Part shown: piece by piece, positions 3,282-36,727 of the stretch
Layout of the letters: every line of letters starts with the position of its first letter
Position numbering within the stretch: position 1 is the first letter of the stretch
Source: Lachnospiraceae bacterium
GTDB lineage: Bacteria > Bacillota > Clostridia > Lachnospirales > Lachnospiraceae
NCBI GenBank assembly: GCA_015057375.1
Contig: SVEM01000002.1
Span: 62,001 to 126,000 of the forward strand
Reading direction: 5' to 3'
DNA: 64,000 nt
Notes under the pieces: generated by a model
What the model was told of the DNA's origin: nothing
What the model saw: the letters and a program-made list of their open reading frames with translations, nothing else
Databases searched by the model: none
Program-made: the position numbers and the translations under genes

Positions 3282-4109
3282 TTAAAGTTGGGAACCACAA
3301 CTCTGACAGAACTTGCCACCGTCACACGGAGCTCCACAGTTCGGACAGAACTTCGGACCTGACTGTGCTACAGGAGCAGGCTCAGGAGCAACAGGTGCAG
3401 AAGCAAACTGAGGTGCCATTCTGCTACGCTGTACGACCTGTTCAATCTGCTGACACATACCAACATACTTCTGATATCTCTCCTGCTCTAAAGGACTGCC
3501 CACATTCACCGGTCCACTAGAGAAACTCATACCCAAGAAACTACCGGTAGTAGCGCCTCTGGTCTCTATAGTAACTGTCTTGGAATTAATCTGAAAACGG
3601 ATATCATCAAAATAAGGATTGTTAGCAATCTGCATATTTATGTAGAAATCATACTCTGTTTCATATCTCGGAGGGTTATAGCTAATTTCATTACCCTGAC
3701 TGTCCTCTTGCTTTAACTCCGTCTCTTCGGTACGAATATCAGTCGTGCAGGACATCAAATCCTTAAACTCAATAATATCAGGATTTTCATCCATATAACT
3801 ATCCGCATCGGTAACCAAGAAGCGCGAAGGAACTCCATTAACTTCCTCGATATACATTTTATAATAATCACCGATAACCTGACTAACACGGAAATTCGCC
3901 AATTTTTCTTCATTCTTTGCTCTGTAAACTAACTGCTCCTTAATCTGATCTACCGTAGAGTGACGGCGATCATCAAACCAAGGTGACAGCTTTTTTGCGC
4001 ACTCTTTGCAACAATTACCATCCTCTAATTTACGATTTCCTAAAAGGCCTATTTCACCACCACAAATATCACATTCTTTTTTCTCAAATATTTTCCCAAA
4101 AATACCCAT
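3282..4109 (-). CDS. DUF4428-type protein with terminal zinc ribbon
   Basis: 275 residues, no signal peptide. The N-terminus KKECDICGGEIGLLGNRKL plus CCKEC is a treble-clef-like Cys4 site typical of DUF4428. A middle domain (about 60-205) resembles PH-like or short beta domains in these proteins. The last 30 residues form a second ribbon, FCPNCG...FCQSCG, after an Ala/Pro linker. Function is unknown. The spacing of 12 bases to the SPFH gene and 42 to the next zinc-ribbon gene argues for co-expression and possibly one membrane-associated complex held together by the shared ribbons. Confidence 0.75.
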   Translation of the reverse strand: MGIFGKIFEKKECDICGGEIGLLGNRKLEDGNCCKECAKKLSPWFDDRRHSTVDQIKEQLVYRAKNEEKLANFRVSQVIGDYYKMYIEEVNGVPSRFLVTDADSYMDENPDIIEFKDLMSCTTDIRTEETELKQEDSQGNEISYNPPRYETEYDFYINMQIANNPYFDDIRFQINSKTVTIETRGATTGSFLGMSFSSGPVNVGSPLEQERYQKYVGMCQQIEQVVQRSRMAPQFASAPVAPEPAPVAQSGPKFCPNCGAPCDGGKFCQSCGSQL

Positions 4110-4121
4110 TATTTTTCCTCC

Positions 4122-5540
4122 TTAAACTATATCACCATTATCAAAAAGATCTCCACATTCAGGACAGAACTTAGGTGCTTTAGTTGGATCAGCAGGCTGC
4201 CAACCACACTTGTCACACTTATACTGAGGAACACCTGCAGGCTTTTGACCACCACAGTTCTGACAGAATTTACCTTTGTTTACAGTACCACATGAGCAGG
4301 TCCAACCATCCTCGGCAGGTTTCGGACTGCCGCATTCAGGACAGAATTTGCCGGTAGCAGTAGCACCACAAGCACATTTCCAGCCATTTGCCGTCTGAGG
4401 CTCCGGTTTCTTAGCTCCACATTCAGGACAGAATTTGCCGGTAGCAGTAGCACCACAAGCACACTTCCAACCATCCTGTGCCGGTGCCTGTGCAGGAGCA
4501 CTCTGTTGCTGAGTCTGCTGTTGCTGTCCCATATTAAATAAGTTTTGTGCCGCATTGAAGCCGCCACCCATAGCTCCGCCTGCCATACCCATGCCCATAA
4601 ACCCGGTCATGGCACCGGCTGTGTTACCGGCTGCGGTCTCCATTGCATTAGCAGTAGCAGTTGTCATACGACCAGCCATCATCGCAGCATTTGAACCGTA
4701 AGCCACAGAATCTTCCATTTCCTGAATCTTCTTCATATCCTCATCGTTGAGTGTGATAGGATTCAGGGCAATTTTTTCAACAGAAATACCTCGTGATTCC
4801 ACCCACTCGTACTGCAATGCATCATTCATTGCCTTCTTAAGTTCATTTACTTTTGCAGGCAACTGAGCAGGACGAAGCTCCAACTCTGCAAGTGCACCAA
4901 AAGCAGGCTGCAGTGCTGACACGAACTCTGTCTTCATCTGCTCATCAATCTTATCGCGAGTGAAATCCTGCTCTACATTTCCGCAGACTTTGGTATAAAA
5001 CAGCAATGGATTGCTGATGATGTACGAATACATACCGTTACAACGAACATTAACGGTACGGCTGAAACCGATTTTCTTGTTCATAACTTCAAAGATAATA
5101 GGGCTTGGAGTGCCAAATCTATTACCCATAATCTCTTTTGTATTGAAATAATAAACTCTTTGATCCTTTCCTGTATCGCCACCGTAAGCAAAACGCTTGC
5201 CGATAGCTTTAAAGGTATCCTTCAGGCTCTGTCCGAAAGATCCCGCAAAAATAGAAGGCTCAGTTGAGGTATCATAAGTATATTCGCCAGGTTCGGCACA
5301 AACCTCAACTACCTTACCCTGCTCTACGATAATCATACATTGACCATCAGCAACAGCAATTCCCGATCCGTTAGAAATCAAATTGTCGCTTCCCTTAGTA
5401 TTGGAACTGCGACCGGAAATCCTCTTCTGACCCTTGACCACAAGGGTATCCATATCCATTGCCTCACAGTAAAAAAACTCCTTCCACTGATCCGCCAATA
5501 CGCCACCAACGGCGCCAATTCCTGCTTTAATAAGTCCCAT
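4122..5540 (-). CDS. SPFH/Band 7 protein with four C-terminal zinc ribbons (YdjI-like)
   Basis: 472 residues. The SPFH domain occupies about 20-270; the subfamily is often called virion core protein in databases. It is followed by a helical Ala/Met/Gly-rich stretch and a Gln-rich linker (about 335-350), then four ribbons: three with a CxC...FCxxCG pattern and one CDKCGW...FCPECG. Two ribbons are nearly identical and come from an 87-bp in-gene duplication. SPFH proteins scaffold membrane microdomains; B. subtilis YdjI recruits PspA. There is no N-terminal helix, so membrane attachment is probably peripheral or through partners. SD GTAAAGGAG. Confidence 0.85.
   Translation of the reverse strand: MGLIKAGIGAVGGVLADQWKEFFYCEAMDMDTLVVKGQKRISGRSSNTKGSDNLISNGSGIAVADGQCMIIVEQGKVVEVCAEPGEYTYDTSTEPSIFAGSFGQSLKDTFKAIGKRFAYGGDTGKDQRVYYFNTKEIMGNRFGTPSPIIFEVMNKKIGFSRTVNVRCNGMYSYIISNPLLFYTKVCGNVEQDFTRDKIDEQMKTEFVSALQPAFGALAELELRPAQLPAKVNELKKAMNDALQYEWVESRGISVEKIALNPITLNDEDMKKIQEMEDSVAYGSNAAMMAGRMTTATANAMETAAGNTAGAMTGFMGMGMAGGAMGGGFNAAQNLFNMGQQQQTQQQSAPAQAPAQDGWKCACGATATGKFCPECGAKKPEPQTANGWKCACGATATGKFCPECGSPKPAEDGWTCSCGTVNKGKFCQNCGGQKPAGVPQYKCDKCGWQPADPTKAPKFCPECGDLFDNGDIV
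4333..4463 (-). repeat. 87-bp internal duplication encoding two zinc ribbons
   Basis: A 44-base stretch beginning CATTCAGGACAGAATTTGCC occurs at 4333 and again at 4420, exactly 87 bases (29 codons) apart, in the SPFH gene. The perfect identity, including synonymous positions, indicates a recent tandem duplication or ongoing conversion. Confidence 0.9.
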
Positions 5541-5545
5541 AATAA

Positions 5546-5818
5546 TTACTCCTTTACATTAGTTTTTGAATAAGGGTTTTTATTTTCTTTCGGTGGGTCC
5601 TTGACGGAACTACACTCTGCAGCCCATCCCATAATCCACATCCCTGAAAGGATAATCAGGATCCAAAAGGCCAAACCACCAACAAACCACCAAATTGAAA
5701 TATCCAGCCAAATATGAAGTGCCAACAGTATCCATGCGGGAATACTCCACTCCAGATTCAGCAGAAGATTGATAAGTAGGCAGAGAAAAAAACTTCCTCC
5801 TCTGCTGGTATGTCTCAA
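5546..5818 (-). CDS. Small two-helix membrane protein
   Basis: About 90 residues, not recognised. The start is TTG at 5818 (AGAGGAG SD about 12 bases upstream); no in-frame ATG would retain the N-terminal helix. Two strongly hydrophobic stretches (about 10-35 and 40-65, rich in Trp, Leu, Ile) are followed by a charged tail KDPPKENKNPYSK. It sits between the DUF6935-like and SPFH genes, 5 bases before the latter, and could be a membrane anchor for the SPFH protein. The overlapping frame at 5610-5876 lacks such features and is taken as a shadow. Confidence 0.6.
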   Translation of the reverse strand: MRHTSRGGSFFLCLLINLLLNLEWSIPAWILLALHIWLDISIWWFVGGLAFWILIILSGMWIMGWAAECSSVKDPPKENKNPYSKTNVKE

Positions 5819-5866
5819 AATTTATACCAACTCCTCTCTTAACAGAGCAATCTGCTGTACATATTA

Positions 5867-6433
5867 TTATGCCCATGGATCAGCAGACTTTGGCTGGCGA
5901 ATGCTTACCAGCAAAAATTGATCCCACAATAACCAGGTGCCATCCCCCTTCTGTCGCAATACAATTTCACGGGCATTATCCGCACCACCGCTCTTAATGT
6001 GCAGCTTCTTATAACCGTGATTTGCATCTGCATAAGGACCCGCCTCAATTGTCAACTTATATGGCACAGTGGGCGTGTAATCGTTATCCGGGGTTGCACC
6101 TTCAAAGTATGAGAACGGCACATGATGTCCCCCACGGAAACGGTCGTTCAAAAACGAGATGTCCATAGCACTAAGCGGGCGTGGTCCACGAAGCCAATTA
6201 AGCATTTCTGTACCAATATTTCTGTCTGCCGCATATACACACAATGCACAAACCGTCAACGCAGCTGTTTGAAACGGATCTGTCAGTACAGCCTCAGGTA
6301 AAGCCTGCATTTGTTCAAGTGTTTCCGGCAAAGCTGAAAAACTGAAGGTCTGGCTCGACGAATGATTCGCTGATGTCGCAGGAGCTGAACTCTGTGCGGG
6401 GTTATTATTCTTCAAATTGTCAAAAATAGACAT
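5867..6433 (-). CDS. DUF6935-like conserved protein
   Basis: 188 residues starting at ATG 6433 (AGGAGGAG SD, 8-base gap); the ORF-track TTG two codons earlier is less likely. A low-complexity Asn/Ser/Ala N-terminus (1-35) precedes a compact domain with the conserved-looking stretches AALTVCALCVYAADRN, MLNWLRGPRPLS and PDNDYTPTVPY, and an end PKSADPWA. I recall this as the uncharacterised DUF6935 family; the number should be confirmed. No membrane segment is visible and no enzymatic motif is recognised. It lies 61 bases after the helicase gene, in the same operon. Confidence 0.7.
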   Translation of the reverse strand: MSIFDNLKNNNPAQSSAPATSANHSSSQTFSFSALPETLEQMQALPEAVLTDPFQTAALTVCALCVYAADRNIGTEMLNWLRGPRPLSAMDISFLNDRFRGGHHVPFSYFEGATPDNDYTPTVPYKLTIEAGPYADANHGYKKLHIKSGGADNAREIVLRQKGDGTWLLWDQFLLVSIRQPKSADPWA

Positions 6434-13137: not shown

Positions 13138-13866
13138 ATGAGAACAGTACTTATCGTTTTATCGCTGATAATTATATCTGTAATCAGCATACCGTTATAT
13201 CTGGTTACATTTATAATAAGCAAGTTTAATCCTATGAAAAGTCATATGTTTGCACAGAAAATAGTAAGTCTCGCATTTAAATTATGGCTTTTCATTGCCG
13301 GAACTAAATATGAGATATACGGCCTTGAGAAAATTCCGAAAGACGAAGCTGTTATGTATGTATGCAATCACCGTTCATTTTTTGACATTATACTGAGCTA
13401 TGCATACATGCCGGGACCTACATCCTATGTTTCCAAGCAGTCTATTAAAAAAATTCCGTGTGTAGGCCAGTGGATGTATTTTCTTTCATGTTTATTCCTT
13501 GACAGGGACGATATAAAAAGCGGTCTGCAGATGATAAAAGACTGTATCGCACTCATTCAAAAAGGCTATTCCGTATACATCGCGCCGGAAGGCACACGAA
13601 ATGTAGAGGACACACTGCTCCCGTTTAAAGAAGGCAGTTTTAAAATTGCGACAAGAACTAATTGCAAAATTGTACCTATATGTTATACTAACACAGAGAA
13701 AATATTTGAAACACATCTTCCTTGGGTCAGACGAACCAAAAATGTTACAATGGAATTCGGAGACCCGGTTGATATTACAGGCATGGAGCGTGACGAATTA
13801 AAAACTCTCGGAGTTCGCCTTAACAATATCATCCAGGAAATGTACAATGAAAGGAGCAACTTATGA
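13138..13866 (+). CDS. plsC: 1-acyl-sn-glycerol-3-phosphate acyltransferase
   Basis: 242 residues. N-terminal membrane helix (about 3-28) and a PlsC domain with NHRSFFD (HX4D: His78, Asp83) and the acyl-acceptor motif PEGTR (about 151). It makes phosphatidic acid from lysophosphatidic acid at the inner membrane face. SD AAGGAG. It overlaps the next gene by 4 bases (ATGA), implying translational coupling. This intact copy contrasts with the broken PlsC-like gene at 37.6-38.1 kb, which belongs to a different subfamily. Confidence 0.92.
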   Translation: MRTVLIVLSLIIISVISIPLYLVTFIISKFNPMKSHMFAQKIVSLAFKLWLFIAGTKYEIYGLEKIPKDEAVMYVCNHRSFFDIILSYAYMPGPTSYVSKQSIKKIPCVGQWMYFLSCLFLDRDDIKSGLQMIKDCIALIQKGYSVYIAPEGTRNVEDTLLPFKEGSFKIATRTNCKIVPICYTNTEKIFETHLPWVRRTKNVTMEFGDPVDITGMERDELKTLGVRLNNIIQEMYNERSNL

Positions 13867-29521: not shown

Positions 29522-29549
29522 TTGACATAAAAAATGAGGAGTATATACT
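29522..29549 (+). promoter_or_regulatory. Sigma-A promoter of the CobW-family pair
   Basis: TTGACA (29522-29527), a 16-base spacer and TATACT (29544-29549), about 50 bases upstream of the first CobW-family ATG. No recognisable Zur dyad was found around it. Confidence 0.75.
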
Positions 29550-29600
29550 AAAATATAACCAAAGCAATATGGAAATTCTTAGTATCGGAGGTATTTTACA

Positions 29601-30746
29601 ATGACAAAAATAGATATCATTTCAGGTTTCCTCGGAGCCGGAAAAACAACACTTATTAAAAAACTTATTGATGAATCACTTAAAGGACAGAAGCTCGTTC
29701 TTATAGAAAATGAATTTGGCGAGATAGGCATTGACGGAGGCTTTTTAAAAGATGCCGGAATTGAAATTACCGAGATGAATTCAGGCTGTATCTGCTGTTC
29801 CCTTGTCGGCGATTTTGGAACCGCTCTTAAAGAAGTTATCGACACATATTCACCTGACCGCATAATCATCGAGCCTTCAGGTGTCGGCAAGCTGTCAGAT
29901 GTTATAAAAGCTGTGCAGGATGTTGCAGCAGAAGCCGACATCGTTCTCAACAGCGCAACAACCGTAGTTGATGCAAATAAGGCAAAGATGTATATGAAAA
30001 ACTTCGGCGAATTCTTCAACAACCAGATAGAACACGCCGGCGCAATCATCCTCAGCCGTACTCAGACTTCTAAAGAAGGTGTTGTAACAGACTGCGTTTC
30101 ACGTATAAGAGAATACAATGAAACTGCTGCCATAGTAACAACTCCGTGGGACGACATAGAAGCCGCTACTATTCTTAGTGCAATGGAGCACACAAATGTA
30201 ATTGATGACTTGATAAGCGAAGTGGTCCATGAGCATGAGCATCATCATGAACATGGCGAATGTTGTTGTCACGGCCATCATGAACACGAACATCATCATG
30301 AGCATCACCACCATGAGCATGAAGAGTGCTGTTGCCACGGTCACCATGAACACGAGCATCATGAACACCATCTTGAGCATGAACATGGTGAATGCTGCTG
30401 CCATGGACATCATGAGCACGAACATCATCATGATGCTCATTCTGAGCACCATAACCATCACCATGCTGATGATGTATTTACAAGCTGGGGCAAAGAAACT
30501 CCTGTTATATACAGCAAAGAAGATCTTAACCAGATTCTCGCAACACTTGCAAACACAGATGAGTACGGATTTATTCTTCGTGCTAAAGGAATGGTTGCTT
30601 CCGAAGACGGCGAATGGTTACACTTTGACCTGACACCGGGCGAATATGAAGTAAGACACGGTGCTTCCGATTATACCGGCAAGCTCTGCGTTATCGGAAC
30701 TGATATAAACGAAGATGCTCTTATGGAATTATTCGGTCTGAATTAA
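29601..30746 (+). CDS. CobW/COG0523 GTPase with long His/Cys-rich metal-binding insert
   Basis: 381 residues. The G3E GTPase domain begins ISGFLGAGKTTLIKKL (Walker A) and has NEFGEIGIDGGFL and the metal-site SGCICCSL (GCxCC). Residues about 210-295 are almost wholly His, Glu and Gly with three ECCCHGHHEHEH blocks, a likely zinc or nickel store. A CobW C-terminal domain follows (about 300-381). The family contains metallochaperones, such as zinc-dependent ZNG1-like proteins. The metal is not fixed by sequence. AT-rich promoter; the next gene follows after 10 bases. Confidence 0.9.
   Translation: MTKIDIISGFLGAGKTTLIKKLIDESLKGQKLVLIENEFGEIGIDGGFLKDAGIEITEMNSGCICCSLVGDFGTALKEVIDTYSPDRIIIEPSGVGKLSDVIKAVQDVAAEADIVLNSATTVVDANKAKMYMKNFGEFFNNQIEHAGAIILSRTQTSKEGVVTDCVSRIREYNETAAIVTTPWDDIEAATILSAMEHTNVIDDLISEVVHEHEHHHEHGECCCHGHHEHEHHHEHHHHEHEECCCHGHHEHEHHEHHLEHEHGECCCHGHHEHEHHHDAHSEHHNHHHADDVFTSWGKETPVIYSKEDLNQILATLANTDEYGFILRAKGMVASEDGEWLHFDLTPGEYEVRHGASDYTGKLCVIGTDINEDALMELFGLN
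30226..30470 (+). repeat. In-gene repeats encoding His-rich metal-binding blocks
   Basis: Degenerate repeats of CATGAACACGAACATCATCA-like units with three GAATG(T/C)TG(T/C)TG(T/C)CA(C/T)GG copies. They code for ECCCHGHH blocks in the GTPase and explain the long Met-rich antisense frame. Confidence 0.85.
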
Positions 30747-30756
30747 GGAGGTCCAT

Positions 30757-31704
30757 ATGTTTCACAGAGAAATTCCCGTTTTTCTGTTTACAGGTTTCTT
30801 AGAAAGCGGAAAAACATCATTTATACTTGATACTCTTTATCAGGACTATTTTGCGACCGGCGAACGCACGCTTATCATAGCCTGCGAAGAAGGCGAAAAA
30901 GAGTATGACAAAAAAGAACTGTTAAAGATAAACACCTATGTTGAATACGTTCACGACGAATCAGAACTTACAAAGGAGCTTTTTGCAAAATGGCAAACCT
31001 CCCACAAACCTCGTCGCGTCCTCATTGAATATAACGGAATGTGGAATGTGGAATCAGTTCTTGAAGAAATATATCCCGCAAACTGGGTACTTACACAGGT
31101 TATTTCAACCATCGACTATTCAACATTTAATATGTACTGGACAAATATGCGCTCACTCGTAACCAATCAGTTCAGTCTGTCGGATATGGTTATATTTAAC
31201 CGCTGCGACGAAACTGCAAAACCGGGCGAGCTCAGAAGAAATATCAAGATTTTTAATAAGAAAGCCCAGATTGGCTACGACTGGCAGGAAGGCGTAAACA
31301 ATGAAGGTATGGCAGAACAGCTTCCGTACGATATGTCCGCTCCGATTATTGAAATACATGACGATGACTACGGAATCTTTTATATGGATGTCATGGAAAA
31401 TCCAAACAAATACGCCGGAAAAACCATCAAATACAGCGGCCTGTTTTTCAGACCATCAAACTATTCTATGGACAAGTTCGTTCCGGGAAGATTTGCAATG
31501 ACATGCTGTGCCGATGACATAACATATCTTGGCCTGGTATGTAAAACCGAAAAAGATGTAGACCTTCCGGAAAGACAGTGGATTACACTTACTGCCGAGA
31601 TTAAAGCAGAATATGTAAAAGAATACCGCGACCTCGGTCCTGTGCTGTACTTAAAGGATATAGAAACCGGCACACGTCCGGAGGATGATTTGGTGTATTT
31701 TTAA
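30757..31704 (+). CDS. CobW-family GTPase fused to a YcgQ-like domain
   Basis: 315 residues. The N-terminal half is a CobW-like P-loop GTPase (FLFTGFLESGKTSFIL), but the GCxCC metal motif is replaced by IACEEGEKEYD. The C-terminal part (about 215-310) with NPNKYAGKTIKYSGLFFR, RFAMTCCADDITYLGLVC and WITLTAEI resembles the soluble C-terminal domain of YcgQ (TIGR03943/DUF1980), a partner of the YcgR permease that B. subtilis controls with zinc. AAGGAGG SD, 10 bases after the His-rich GTPase, so the two probably work together. Role inferred, not shown. Confidence 0.8.
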   Translation: MFHREIPVFLFTGFLESGKTSFILDTLYQDYFATGERTLIIACEEGEKEYDKKELLKINTYVEYVHDESELTKELFAKWQTSHKPRRVLIEYNGMWNVESVLEEIYPANWVLTQVISTIDYSTFNMYWTNMRSLVTNQFSLSDMVIFNRCDETAKPGELRRNIKIFNKKAQIGYDWQEGVNNEGMAEQLPYDMSAPIIEIHDDDYGIFYMDVMENPNKYAGKTIKYSGLFFRPSNYSMDKFVPGRFAMTCCADDITYLGLVCKTEKDVDLPERQWITLTAEIKAEYVKEYRDLGPVLYLKDIETGTRPEDDLVYF

Positions 31705-31715
31705 ATCTATATTAA

Positions 31716-31740
31716 AAAGCGGGGTGTTTCACCTCGCTTT
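31716..31740. terminator. Bidirectional terminator overlapping the ABC permease stop
   Basis: AAAGCGGGGTG (31716-31726) and CACCTCGCTTT (31730-31740) pair over 11 positions with one G-U, loop TTT. The permease stop codon (31729-31731) lies in the loop and right arm. The T-run is better on the minus strand (CTTTTTAAT). Confidence 0.78.
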
Positions 31741-34846: not shown

Positions 34847-36727
34847 TTAATATACGCCCTCTAAGTCATAGTCTTCTAAATTGAAGTCCTCTAAATCGTA
34901 GTCTTCTAAATCGTAGTCTTCCATATCAAAATCTTCGTAATCATAATCCTCAAAATCATAGTCTTCCATGTCATAATCTTCCATATCATAGTCATATGAT
35001 GGATATAACATTGATTCAATAATGGCTATAAGATCTGAAGAAACTCCCAATCCTTCGAACTTTTTAATCAAAGCATCAGTGTCAATACCTTCTAACCATT
35101 TGTCAATCTCATCTTCGCTATAAACATTCGCTGTATCTGGCAATTCTATCGGTGATGCTGCTACTTCTTTTCCGCTGAATGTTAAGCCCACAAAGATTTC
35201 GTCTCCGCTGATAAGATTAATGGCCGTTTCCGCTGAATCTTTAGATGACACACAGTTGATTTCGAGTGCCAGATTTGCAATAGAAAGTACAGTTGCACCA
35301 TCATCAGCAATTCCCATAGCCTCAAGAATCTCAGAAGAAGGCTTTATACGAATATTTCCATTGAGGTAATCAGTATTTGTTTTGAAATCAGTTACAACTA
35401 CATCACAGAGTTTTTCCTCGTTGCTCTTAACAGAAAATTCTCCATTAACGGTATTTCCTTTTTCTGTTCCTGTACCGGCTACCGCTACCTCTGCAGCTTC
35501 TAATTCGAAAGCAAAATCTTTGCCGTCACTAACGAGCGCATAATATAAAATCTCTTCATTATCTACTACTATCTTACGACCAACAATCTCATGATTAGCA
35601 TCGACATAGTCAATCCATGAAACTGACGTATCATCTTCAGATGATGCCTCTTCAATATCATTAATAGCACCTTCAATAGAGTCAAGGAACACATCATAAG
35701 CTATACCCGCATCATCATTCATATTTTTCTTCTCAAGGTATGCTGCTATATCTTCAATATACTTTTTAAGTTCCTTGTCAGCCTTAGCCGCCTCAAGCAC
35801 AGCCTTTGCTATGTTTTTAGTATCTTCCTGCTCAATTTTAACTTCTAAGGTTGTGTATTTCTTCTCAATACCGGAAACTTCCAAAACATCTGATGATTTT
35901 TCGATTTCATCCATGTTTTCAAAAATAATCTTTATGTATTTGTCAAGAAGCTTATTAAGTTCTTTCTCTGATGGCAAAACCTCTTTAAACTCAGGGTCGG
36001 AATAAAGCTCTGTAATTCCGACATAATCTTCATCTTCTAAAATCCCTGTACCAGTCTTAAGATATTTATCGCTCATAGAAAGAAACGCCATGAAGGTTTC
36101 ACCTGATTCCAAATTCATGATCATATCCATGTCGACAAATGATTCCCCGTTAATATTTAAAGCGGCCGCTACCTTCTCAAGATTGTCCTTAAGATTTACG
36201 TTCATATCAAGAGTAACGGTGTTAAGCCACGAAAAATCCGAAGAAGGATCCAGTGTGCTCTCAAGTAATGAAAGTGCACTGTCGCCAACATTTAACTTAA
36301 CAGACGTTTCAGCGGCGGCATCTAACTTTAAGCTATCAACAACAGTTCCATAGTATTCAGAAACTTCATCAGTCACAGAACCAAAAGCTTTACTTTCAAC
36401 ATACATAAAATACTTATCATTTGAACCGAAAGACTTAAGGAAGAAACCTTGTACCGTTTCAAAATTAGAAGCTACAGTTACAACCGCTATTAAAACAACC
36501 GCTACAACAGCAGCTATAATTGCCGCTAATTTTTTCTTAGGTTTTTTAACAGGAACATCAACCTGCGGTTCCGCAAAATTAGGTTGTGCTATATTTTCAT
36601 CAACAACAGGTCCTTCTGCCTGAGAGTTTTCAACAGGTTTGCCACACTCAGCACAGAACACAGAATTTTCTTCAATTTCTTTTCCGCAAAATTTACATAA
36701 CATTTCCACATACCAGCAGCAAAACAC
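34847..36727 (-). CDS. Zinc-ribbon membrane protein with acidic YDxED repeat tail
   Basis: 626 residues. A GTG start at 36727 has GAAAGG 8 bases upstream; an in-frame ATG at 36703 has no good SD. Order: zinc ribbon CKFCGKEI...FCAECGK (about 10-35), a Lys/Pro linker, one membrane helix (about 68-90), a large extracellular domain (about 95-570) rich in Asp, Glu, Ser and Val, and a 47-residue tail of nine [YF]DxED pentads. I do not recognise the family beyond the zinc_ribbon_2/membrane layout common in Clostridia. It precedes the ABC-2 exporter on the same strand; any link is inference. Confidence 0.72.
   Translation of the reverse strand: MFCCWYVEMLCKFCGKEIEENSVFCAECGKPVENSQAEGPVVDENIAQPNFAEPQVDVPVKKPKKKLAAIIAAVVAVVLIAVVTVASNFETVQGFFLKSFGSNDKYFMYVESKAFGSVTDEVSEYYGTVVDSLKLDAAAETSVKLNVGDSALSLLESTLDPSSDFSWLNTVTLDMNVNLKDNLEKVAAALNINGESFVDMDMIMNLESGETFMAFLSMSDKYLKTGTGILEDEDYVGITELYSDPEFKEVLPSEKELNKLLDKYIKIIFENMDEIEKSSDVLEVSGIEKKYTTLEVKIEQEDTKNIAKAVLEAAKADKELKKYIEDIAAYLEKKNMNDDAGIAYDVFLDSIEGAINDIEEASSEDDTSVSWIDYVDANHEIVGRKIVVDNEEILYYALVSDGKDFAFELEAAEVAVAGTGTEKGNTVNGEFSVKSNEEKLCDVVVTDFKTNTDYLNGNIRIKPSSEILEAMGIADDGATVLSIANLALEINCVSSKDSAETAINLISGDEIFVGLTFSGKEVAASPIELPDTANVYSEDEIDKWLEGIDTDALIKKFEGLGVSSDLIAIIESMLYPSYDYDMEDYDMEDYDFEDYDYEDFDMEDYDLEDYDLEDFNLEDYDLEGVY
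34858..34998 (-). repeat. 15-bp tandem repeat encoding [YF]DxED
   Basis: About nine degenerate copies of a 15-base unit (for example GATTATGATATGGAA on the coding strand) at the 3' end of the gene. The unit equals five codons, so changes in copy number would keep the frame. Confidence 0.85.

Follow-up and report, generated by a model that had tools for sequence, protein, structure and literature searches.

The window, a stretch of 64,000 nucleotides from a Lachnospiraceae genome, hosts two adjacent genes encoding proteins related to COG0523/CobW-family GTPases (Table 1). A two-gene CobW system had been recognized here by a sequence-only reading, and the two ORFs occupy exactly the positions then given. 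In the following, G1 is the GTPase carrying the metal motif, encoded by gene 1, and G2 is the GTPase domain of gene 2.

Table 1. Features of the gene 1-gene 2 locus (positions in the window).
Feature	Position	Strand	Description
Promoter	29522-29549	+	TTGACA-N16-TATACT; best sigma-70-like match of the region, 11/12; consensus match only
Gene 1 (G1), COG0523/CobW-family GTPase	29601-30746	+	381 aa; GCICC motif, His/Cys store, CobW_C domain
His/Cys-rich metal store of gene 1	30225-30476	+	Residues about 209-292; three ECCCHGHHEHEHH-type units; from translation and repeat search
Gene 2 (G2-DUF1980_C)	30757-31704	+	315 aa; CobW-type GTPase without GCxCC plus DUF1980_C; predicted soluble
GTPase domain of gene 2	30775-31269	+	Walker A GFLESGKT; CEEGEKEY replaces ENEFGE; IEYNGMW; NRCD; GCxCC absent
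DUF1980_C domain of gene 2	31300-31701	+	OB-like fold; RFAMTCCADD; C250, C251, D254 invariant, C262 93%
Terminator-like hairpin	31716-31740	+	11 pairs, T-rich tail; consensus match only

Gene 1 scores above the Pfam cut-offs for both PF02492 (cobW; 130.2 bits, cut-off 20.7) and CobW_C (23.9 bits, cut-off 22). A normal GCxCC motif and a large His/Cys store had been attributed to it, and both are present. The metal motif reads SGCICC, and the DNA behind the store is a 66-bp tandem repeat (2.8 copies, 30246-30433). SGCICC is found in 94 of the 95 G1s accompanying fusions of the gene 2 type, the remaining one having AGCICC. The guanine motif G4 reads SRTQ and does not fit the consensus NKxD. In the listed G1 relatives S or T, followed by R or H, similarly replace NK; since SRTx often retains the final Asp in G1, it is uncertain whether GTP specificity is lost. 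The score of gene 1 is far under the cut-offs of the ZigA and CobW equivalogs (90.9 bits against 332.1 for TIGR02475, the CobW of B12 synthesis). Its closest solved relative is E. coli YjiA.

The gene 2 product is a fusion. Residues 7-171 match PF02492 (40.3 bits, cut-off 20.7), and residues 182-314 match DUF1980_C (PF21537; 93.4 bits, cut-off 25.9, E = 1.3e-26). As noticed earlier, GCxCC is missing from this second GTPase; motif and Pfam profile checks detected neither GCxCC nor CobW_C, and no obvious transmembrane segment is seen in the protein. The C-terminal domain had been described as YcgQ-like. The description is correct for the domain, as DUF1980_C is the C-terminal domain of YcgQ, but does not extend to the whole protein, which is not a member of TIGR03943. 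Gene 2 matches positions 102-219 of the 221 of this model (73.1 bits, E = 2e-20), and the curated cut-off of 88.8 is missed because the N-terminal membrane half of YcgQ is absent.

Walker A, Walker B and EYNG motifs are conserved across all the aligned fusion members. In the DUF1980_C domain of 55 aligned fusion proteins R245, M248 and W275 are invariant, as are C250, C251 and D254, and a Cys at position 262 occurs in 93% of 110 fusion proteins. CCxxD is a candidate metal site of the domain. An AlphaFold2 model of the fusion protein, built from 55 aligned sequences, has a mean pLDDT of 87 and a pTM of 0.64, so that the relative placement of the two domains is uncertain. In Foldseek searches, where the model region covered by each match was judged from alignment lengths and strand order, the N-terminal part retrieved G3E GTPases (zinc-bound YjiA first, also HypB and UreG), and the C-terminal part OB folds (Ten1, RPA14, SSB). 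By sequence search, no solved homologue of DUF1980_C was found.

Near-full-length fusions were detected in 52 of 291 sampled genomes of the class Clostridia, distributed in 16 families (count from the match table); 85 of the genomes have some match. Relatives are encoded at 448 places in a scan of GTDB contigs. Given these numbers and the residues invariant in 55 members, the fusion is not a chance match. Fusions are nearly always found beside G1: a G1 gene lies within six genes of the fusion in 103 of 109 loci, immediately upstream in 99 of these. In one family (L126, L202-L207) the order is reversed, the fusion coming first, and linkage is kept. Apart from local synteny, the pair has no further conserved neighbour in the 109 loci and 40 additional stretches. 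Genes of ABC-transporter type, YlmH, PHP and others are common near fusion loci, and were discarded as module parts, being elements of Lachnospiraceae synteny. An orphan fusion lacking G1 was found at 3960-4895 of locus L128 (genome G181; a similar second copy is in G026). It is followed at 5000-5923 by a gene for a protein joining a Nitro_FeMo-Co (FeMo-co-binding) domain to an FKBP domain, which recalls SlyD, a nickel chaperone of the FKBP type.

This combination of domains occurs widely and should show in any Pfam architecture listing; it is not a new family. No description of the GTPase-DUF1980_C fusion was found in the open-access literature searched, the papers listed there for DUF1980/COG0523 make no mention of DUF1980, and a search of open-access papers on YcgQ with zinc retrieved nothing on the fusion.

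Genes 1 and 2 are separated by 10 nt, which hold the ribosome-binding-like sequence GGAGGT, and the predicted promoter and terminator would enclose them as a two-gene unit. A TTGACA plus TAtACT/TAcACT pair is also located upstream of gene 1 in seven of the close relatives L033-L041. A Zur box, noted earlier as not visible here, was not found in its B. subtilis form (TCGTAATNATTACGA-type) in 112 upstream regions, though the Zur motif of Lachnospiraceae may differ. Rfam elements were not found upstream of the pair either. A recurrent upstream motif, TGGTATGTGATGG, present at about 14 loci, was rejected as an operator, as it corresponds to the 3' end of the upstream coding sequence. At 29540-29590 of the window the -10 region lies within AGTATATACT, and ATACTAA recurs inverted as TTAGTAT ahead of the ribosome-binding site; no operator conserved among relatives could be shown at this element. 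Elsewhere in the window, the minus strand at 34847-36727 encodes a protein of 626 aa that has a zinc-ribbon-like CxxC..CxxC at its N-terminus, a hydrophobic segment and a tail of acidic DYDMEDYD repeats.

A second arrangement, noticed via split matches in several genomes and occurring in other Firmicutes, features a permease. In this form the G1 gene is followed by a GTPase-ArsP_1 fusion of about 530 residues, and then by a YcgQ having membrane segments and CCxxD. The GTPase-ArsP_1 fusion and YcgQ are found together at L121, L125, L129 and L168-L171; at L123 and L124 GTPase (about 210 aa) and permease are encoded by separate genes. G2 of the gene 2 fusion and the GTPase of the GTPase-permease protein share 36% identity over 172 residues and the motifs CExG..EY and EYNG, and both lack GCxCC. 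Judged from these likenesses, the gene 2 GTPase is homologous to the permease-fused GTPase of other Firmicutes. The tree of GTPase domains separates G1 from G2 (99/100 support) and places the fusions among the permease-fused G2s, within their diversity. In the DUF1980_C tree the fused domains make up one side of a branch separating them from YcgQ (99/95; 100% of bootstraps), which is compatible with a single origin of the fusion. In the simplest reading, the permease and the membrane part of YcgQ would have been lost, and the two soluble domains joined, perhaps once.

In some YcgQ proteins a His/Cys cluster, resembling an inbuilt metal relay, sits in the loop ahead of the last predicted membrane segment (L182 5712-6722, with HDHDSCSHVGECCSHDDHHDHFHDHG; L173 5565-6536; L175 5908-6891). 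The charges of 27 YcgQ proteins (loci L113-L182) tilt weakly towards an outside location of DUF1980_C (p = 0.003, N-tail and loop 2 against loop 1 and C side, as set by a hand-made hydropathy rule on related sequences). If the YcgQ domain were truly extracellular, it would have switched membrane sides, being by prediction cytosolic in the fusion.

Permease-type loci are often found close to zinc genes. Fur-family, ZnuA/ZnuB or S14-paralogue genes lie within the few kilobases covered in 19 of 31, a count in which some hits, such as the Fur calls at L113-L115, are phmmer assignments without Pfam check. According to Pfam, L121 has the order ZnuC (ABC ATPase), ZnuB (ABC-3 permease), FUR, G1, G2/ArsP_1, YcgQ; the permease-form locus L125 begins with ZnuA, in the order ZnuA-C-B. 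Paralogues of the ribosomal protein S14 are located near ArsP_1/YcgQ at L173 (2939-3232) and L182 (1426-1695), which is what a Zur regulon would be expected to show; in Lactobacillaceae, Zur is known to target rpsN2 (S14) (PMC3616900). The B. anthracis operon BAS1632, which encodes an ArsP_1 permease and has its upstream region in common with yciC, is bound by Zur at its promoter (PMC6336718). These loci and the B. anthracis data support the zinc link proposed earlier for the YcgQ-permease pair. The related statement of zinc control in Bacillus is thereby borne out for B. anthracis; for ycgR/ycgQ of B. subtilis, ECF-sigma control is described (PMC5584981). The function of the S. pyogenes YcgR/YcgQ proteins (ScfA/ScfB) is described as unknown (PMC5584981).

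Among fusion loci, zinc genes were found near only one of 109. This is L054, where G1, G2:DUF1980_C, YlmH, ZnuA, ZnuC and ZnuB follow each other on the same strand. None was recognised beside the fusion in 40 further stretches, about half of which repeat loci already counted. For the fusion form, we infer the zinc link mostly by homology to the permease form, L054 being the only direct case. The absence of a permease, noticed in the window, extends to the whole genome. Family searches of this genome, provisional at 87% completeness, gave no match to ArsP_1 (PF03773) and no second DUF1980_C. The genome hosts one ABC-3 zinc-type permease gene, in a row with genes for a ZnuA-like protein and an ATPase; a single Fur-family gene was detected, which adjoins a rubrerythrin-like gene and hence looks PerR-like.

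Nickel chaperones, HypB and UreG among them, also have His/Cys stores. The same pair might accordingly be a nickel/cobalt (or iron) module, with a store working as in those proteins and a nickel or cobalt enzyme as the recipient. GTPase chaperones for nickel typically have His-rich stores, a HypB-like GTPase is encoded in the window's genome, and one orphan fusion, as described, adjoins the FKBP/FeMo-co domain protein. One fusion locus, L041, includes a Cobalamin riboswitch (13416-13551), though the distance from the pair, which lies upstream of it, exceeds 4 kb. Against another metal stand the repeated occurrence of the permease form within Znu/Zur/S14 clusters and the row formed by fusion and ZnuABC at L054; moreover, no nickel or cobalt gene was found as a conserved neighbour. 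We deem this explanation improbable.

The two forms differ in the store. G1s beside the fusion contain 22-71 His (median 42.5, n = 94), and those beside the permease 2-16 (median 4, n = 14). The rank test (p = 2e-9) ignores relatedness, related sequences being counted separately and the permease set being small. More weight is therefore given to the three genomes holding both forms, in which G1 has 37 His beside the fusion versus 2 beside the permease (G249), 31 versus 2 (G168) and 46 versus 5 (G243). From this contrast, store and permease look like alternatives; an exception is the permease-type locus L170, the G1 of which has 22 His. The key result is evolutionary: the permease would have gone, the GTPase would have been joined to the soluble domain of YcgQ, and G1 would have gained a store, a direction of change that we infer, as the tree roots were not independently placed.

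A store that is large, variable and different among close relatives, that is present where the permease is absent and lies in neighbourhoods without a conserved client gene, could also denote a metal buffer rather than a chaperone. Gene 1 would then sequester excess metal, and the Cys pair of gene 2 would sense it and gate its release, with no specific client. Against this stand the conservation of Walker A, Walker B and EYNG in all members, which imply nucleotide-driven work, and the uptake genes adjoining the homologous permease form; a buffer is, in our opinion, somewhat more improbable than a change of metal.

G1 and G2 have complementary motifs. In both forms the G4 of G1 is SR[T/S]x or a variant, and the metal motif is kept; the G4 of the fusion G2 is NR[C]x, most often NRCD, and the metal motif is absent. 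COG0523 proteins of the YciC kind, encoded in neighbouring clusters, contain NKxD. Such complementarity suggests joint action of the two proteins, though the argument is weakened by the variable G4 of the permease-form G2. Building on the architectures, the conserved residues, the linkage, the homology between G2 and the GTPase joined to the permease, and the contrast of store and permease, the best explanation is that the pair represents a branch of a zinc-homeostasis module that is soluble and does without a permease, serving in cytosolic zinc allocation and possibly working as a functionally split GTPase pair. We give it an even chance. According to this explanation zinc would be the metal, gathered in the cytosol by G1 in its His/Cys store and GCICC site. 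G1 and G2 would then come into contact, the metal site being provided by the former and NR[C]x by the latter, and nucleotide turnover would move the metal to (or from) the CC-x-x-D site of the fused DUF1980_C. As a putative acceptor, this domain would pass the metal to clients or hold it. Delivery through a fused acceptor domain, the mechanism suggested in the sequence-only reading, is plausible. A bolder version pictures a split metal-GTPase machine: a complementary G3E heterodimer would pass zinc to an OB-like acceptor that was once part of a membrane transporter, possibly on the extracellular side, and moved to the cytosol when a protein-borne zinc store replaced the permease. This version seems unlikely to us.

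The least probable alternative is that the gene 2 product serves as a regulator or scaffold dependent on nucleotide, its DUF1980_C binding protein or nucleic acid (as an OB fold) and not metal, with cysteines that are structural or redox-active. It could account for the OB-like fold matching Ten1, RPA14 and SSB, for the lack of a solved homologue and for the fact that two neighbouring cysteines on their own make a poor metal site, but is disfavoured by the conservation of C250, C251, D254 and C262, by the CCxxD common to the fusion and the YcgQ of zinc clusters, and by the failure to find a partner gene related to DNA or RNA that is conserved.

Which clients COG0523 metallochaperones serve, and by what mechanism, is a long-standing question; another concerns the role of the widespread YcgR/YcgQ (ScfAB) membrane pair. 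The architectures described link the two questions: one and the same set of two GTPases is found either fused beside that permease in zinc operons, or free of it, with an acceptor-like domain fused in cis and a zinc store added. Two soluble proteins are much more tractable than a membrane complex, which makes both questions directly testable, and in abundant gut bacteria.

The pair resembles several known systems. With the nickel-insertion GTPases HypB and UreG it shares the G3E fold, probably metal-coupled nucleotide hydrolysis and, in some of them, His-rich stores; these belong to another sequence family, have no OB domain and have other neighbours. The COG0523 zinc metallochaperones (B. subtilis YciC/ZagA, ZigA, E. 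coli YjiA/YeiR) feature, as gene 1, a G3E fold, GCxCC, CobW_C and a His-rich region; gene 1 differs from them in having SR[T/S]x and not NKxD as G4, and in being almost always paired with a GTPase lacking GCxCC. YcgQ/DUF1980 proteins (TIGR03943) of YcgR-YcgQ systems (S. pyogenes ScfA/ScfB, SMU.746/747, the B. anthracis BAS1632 operon) have DUF1980_C and CCxxD as gene 2 does. Gene 2, however, has neither membrane segments nor an ArsP_1 partner, and its domain, fused to a GTPase, is hence predicted to be cytosolic. A further likeness is to the GTPase-ArsP_1 plus YcgQ zinc clusters, in which G1, G2 and DUF1980_C are the same as in the window's module; unlike the latter, these clusters have kept the permease and the membrane part of YcgQ, and their G1 has little or no His store.
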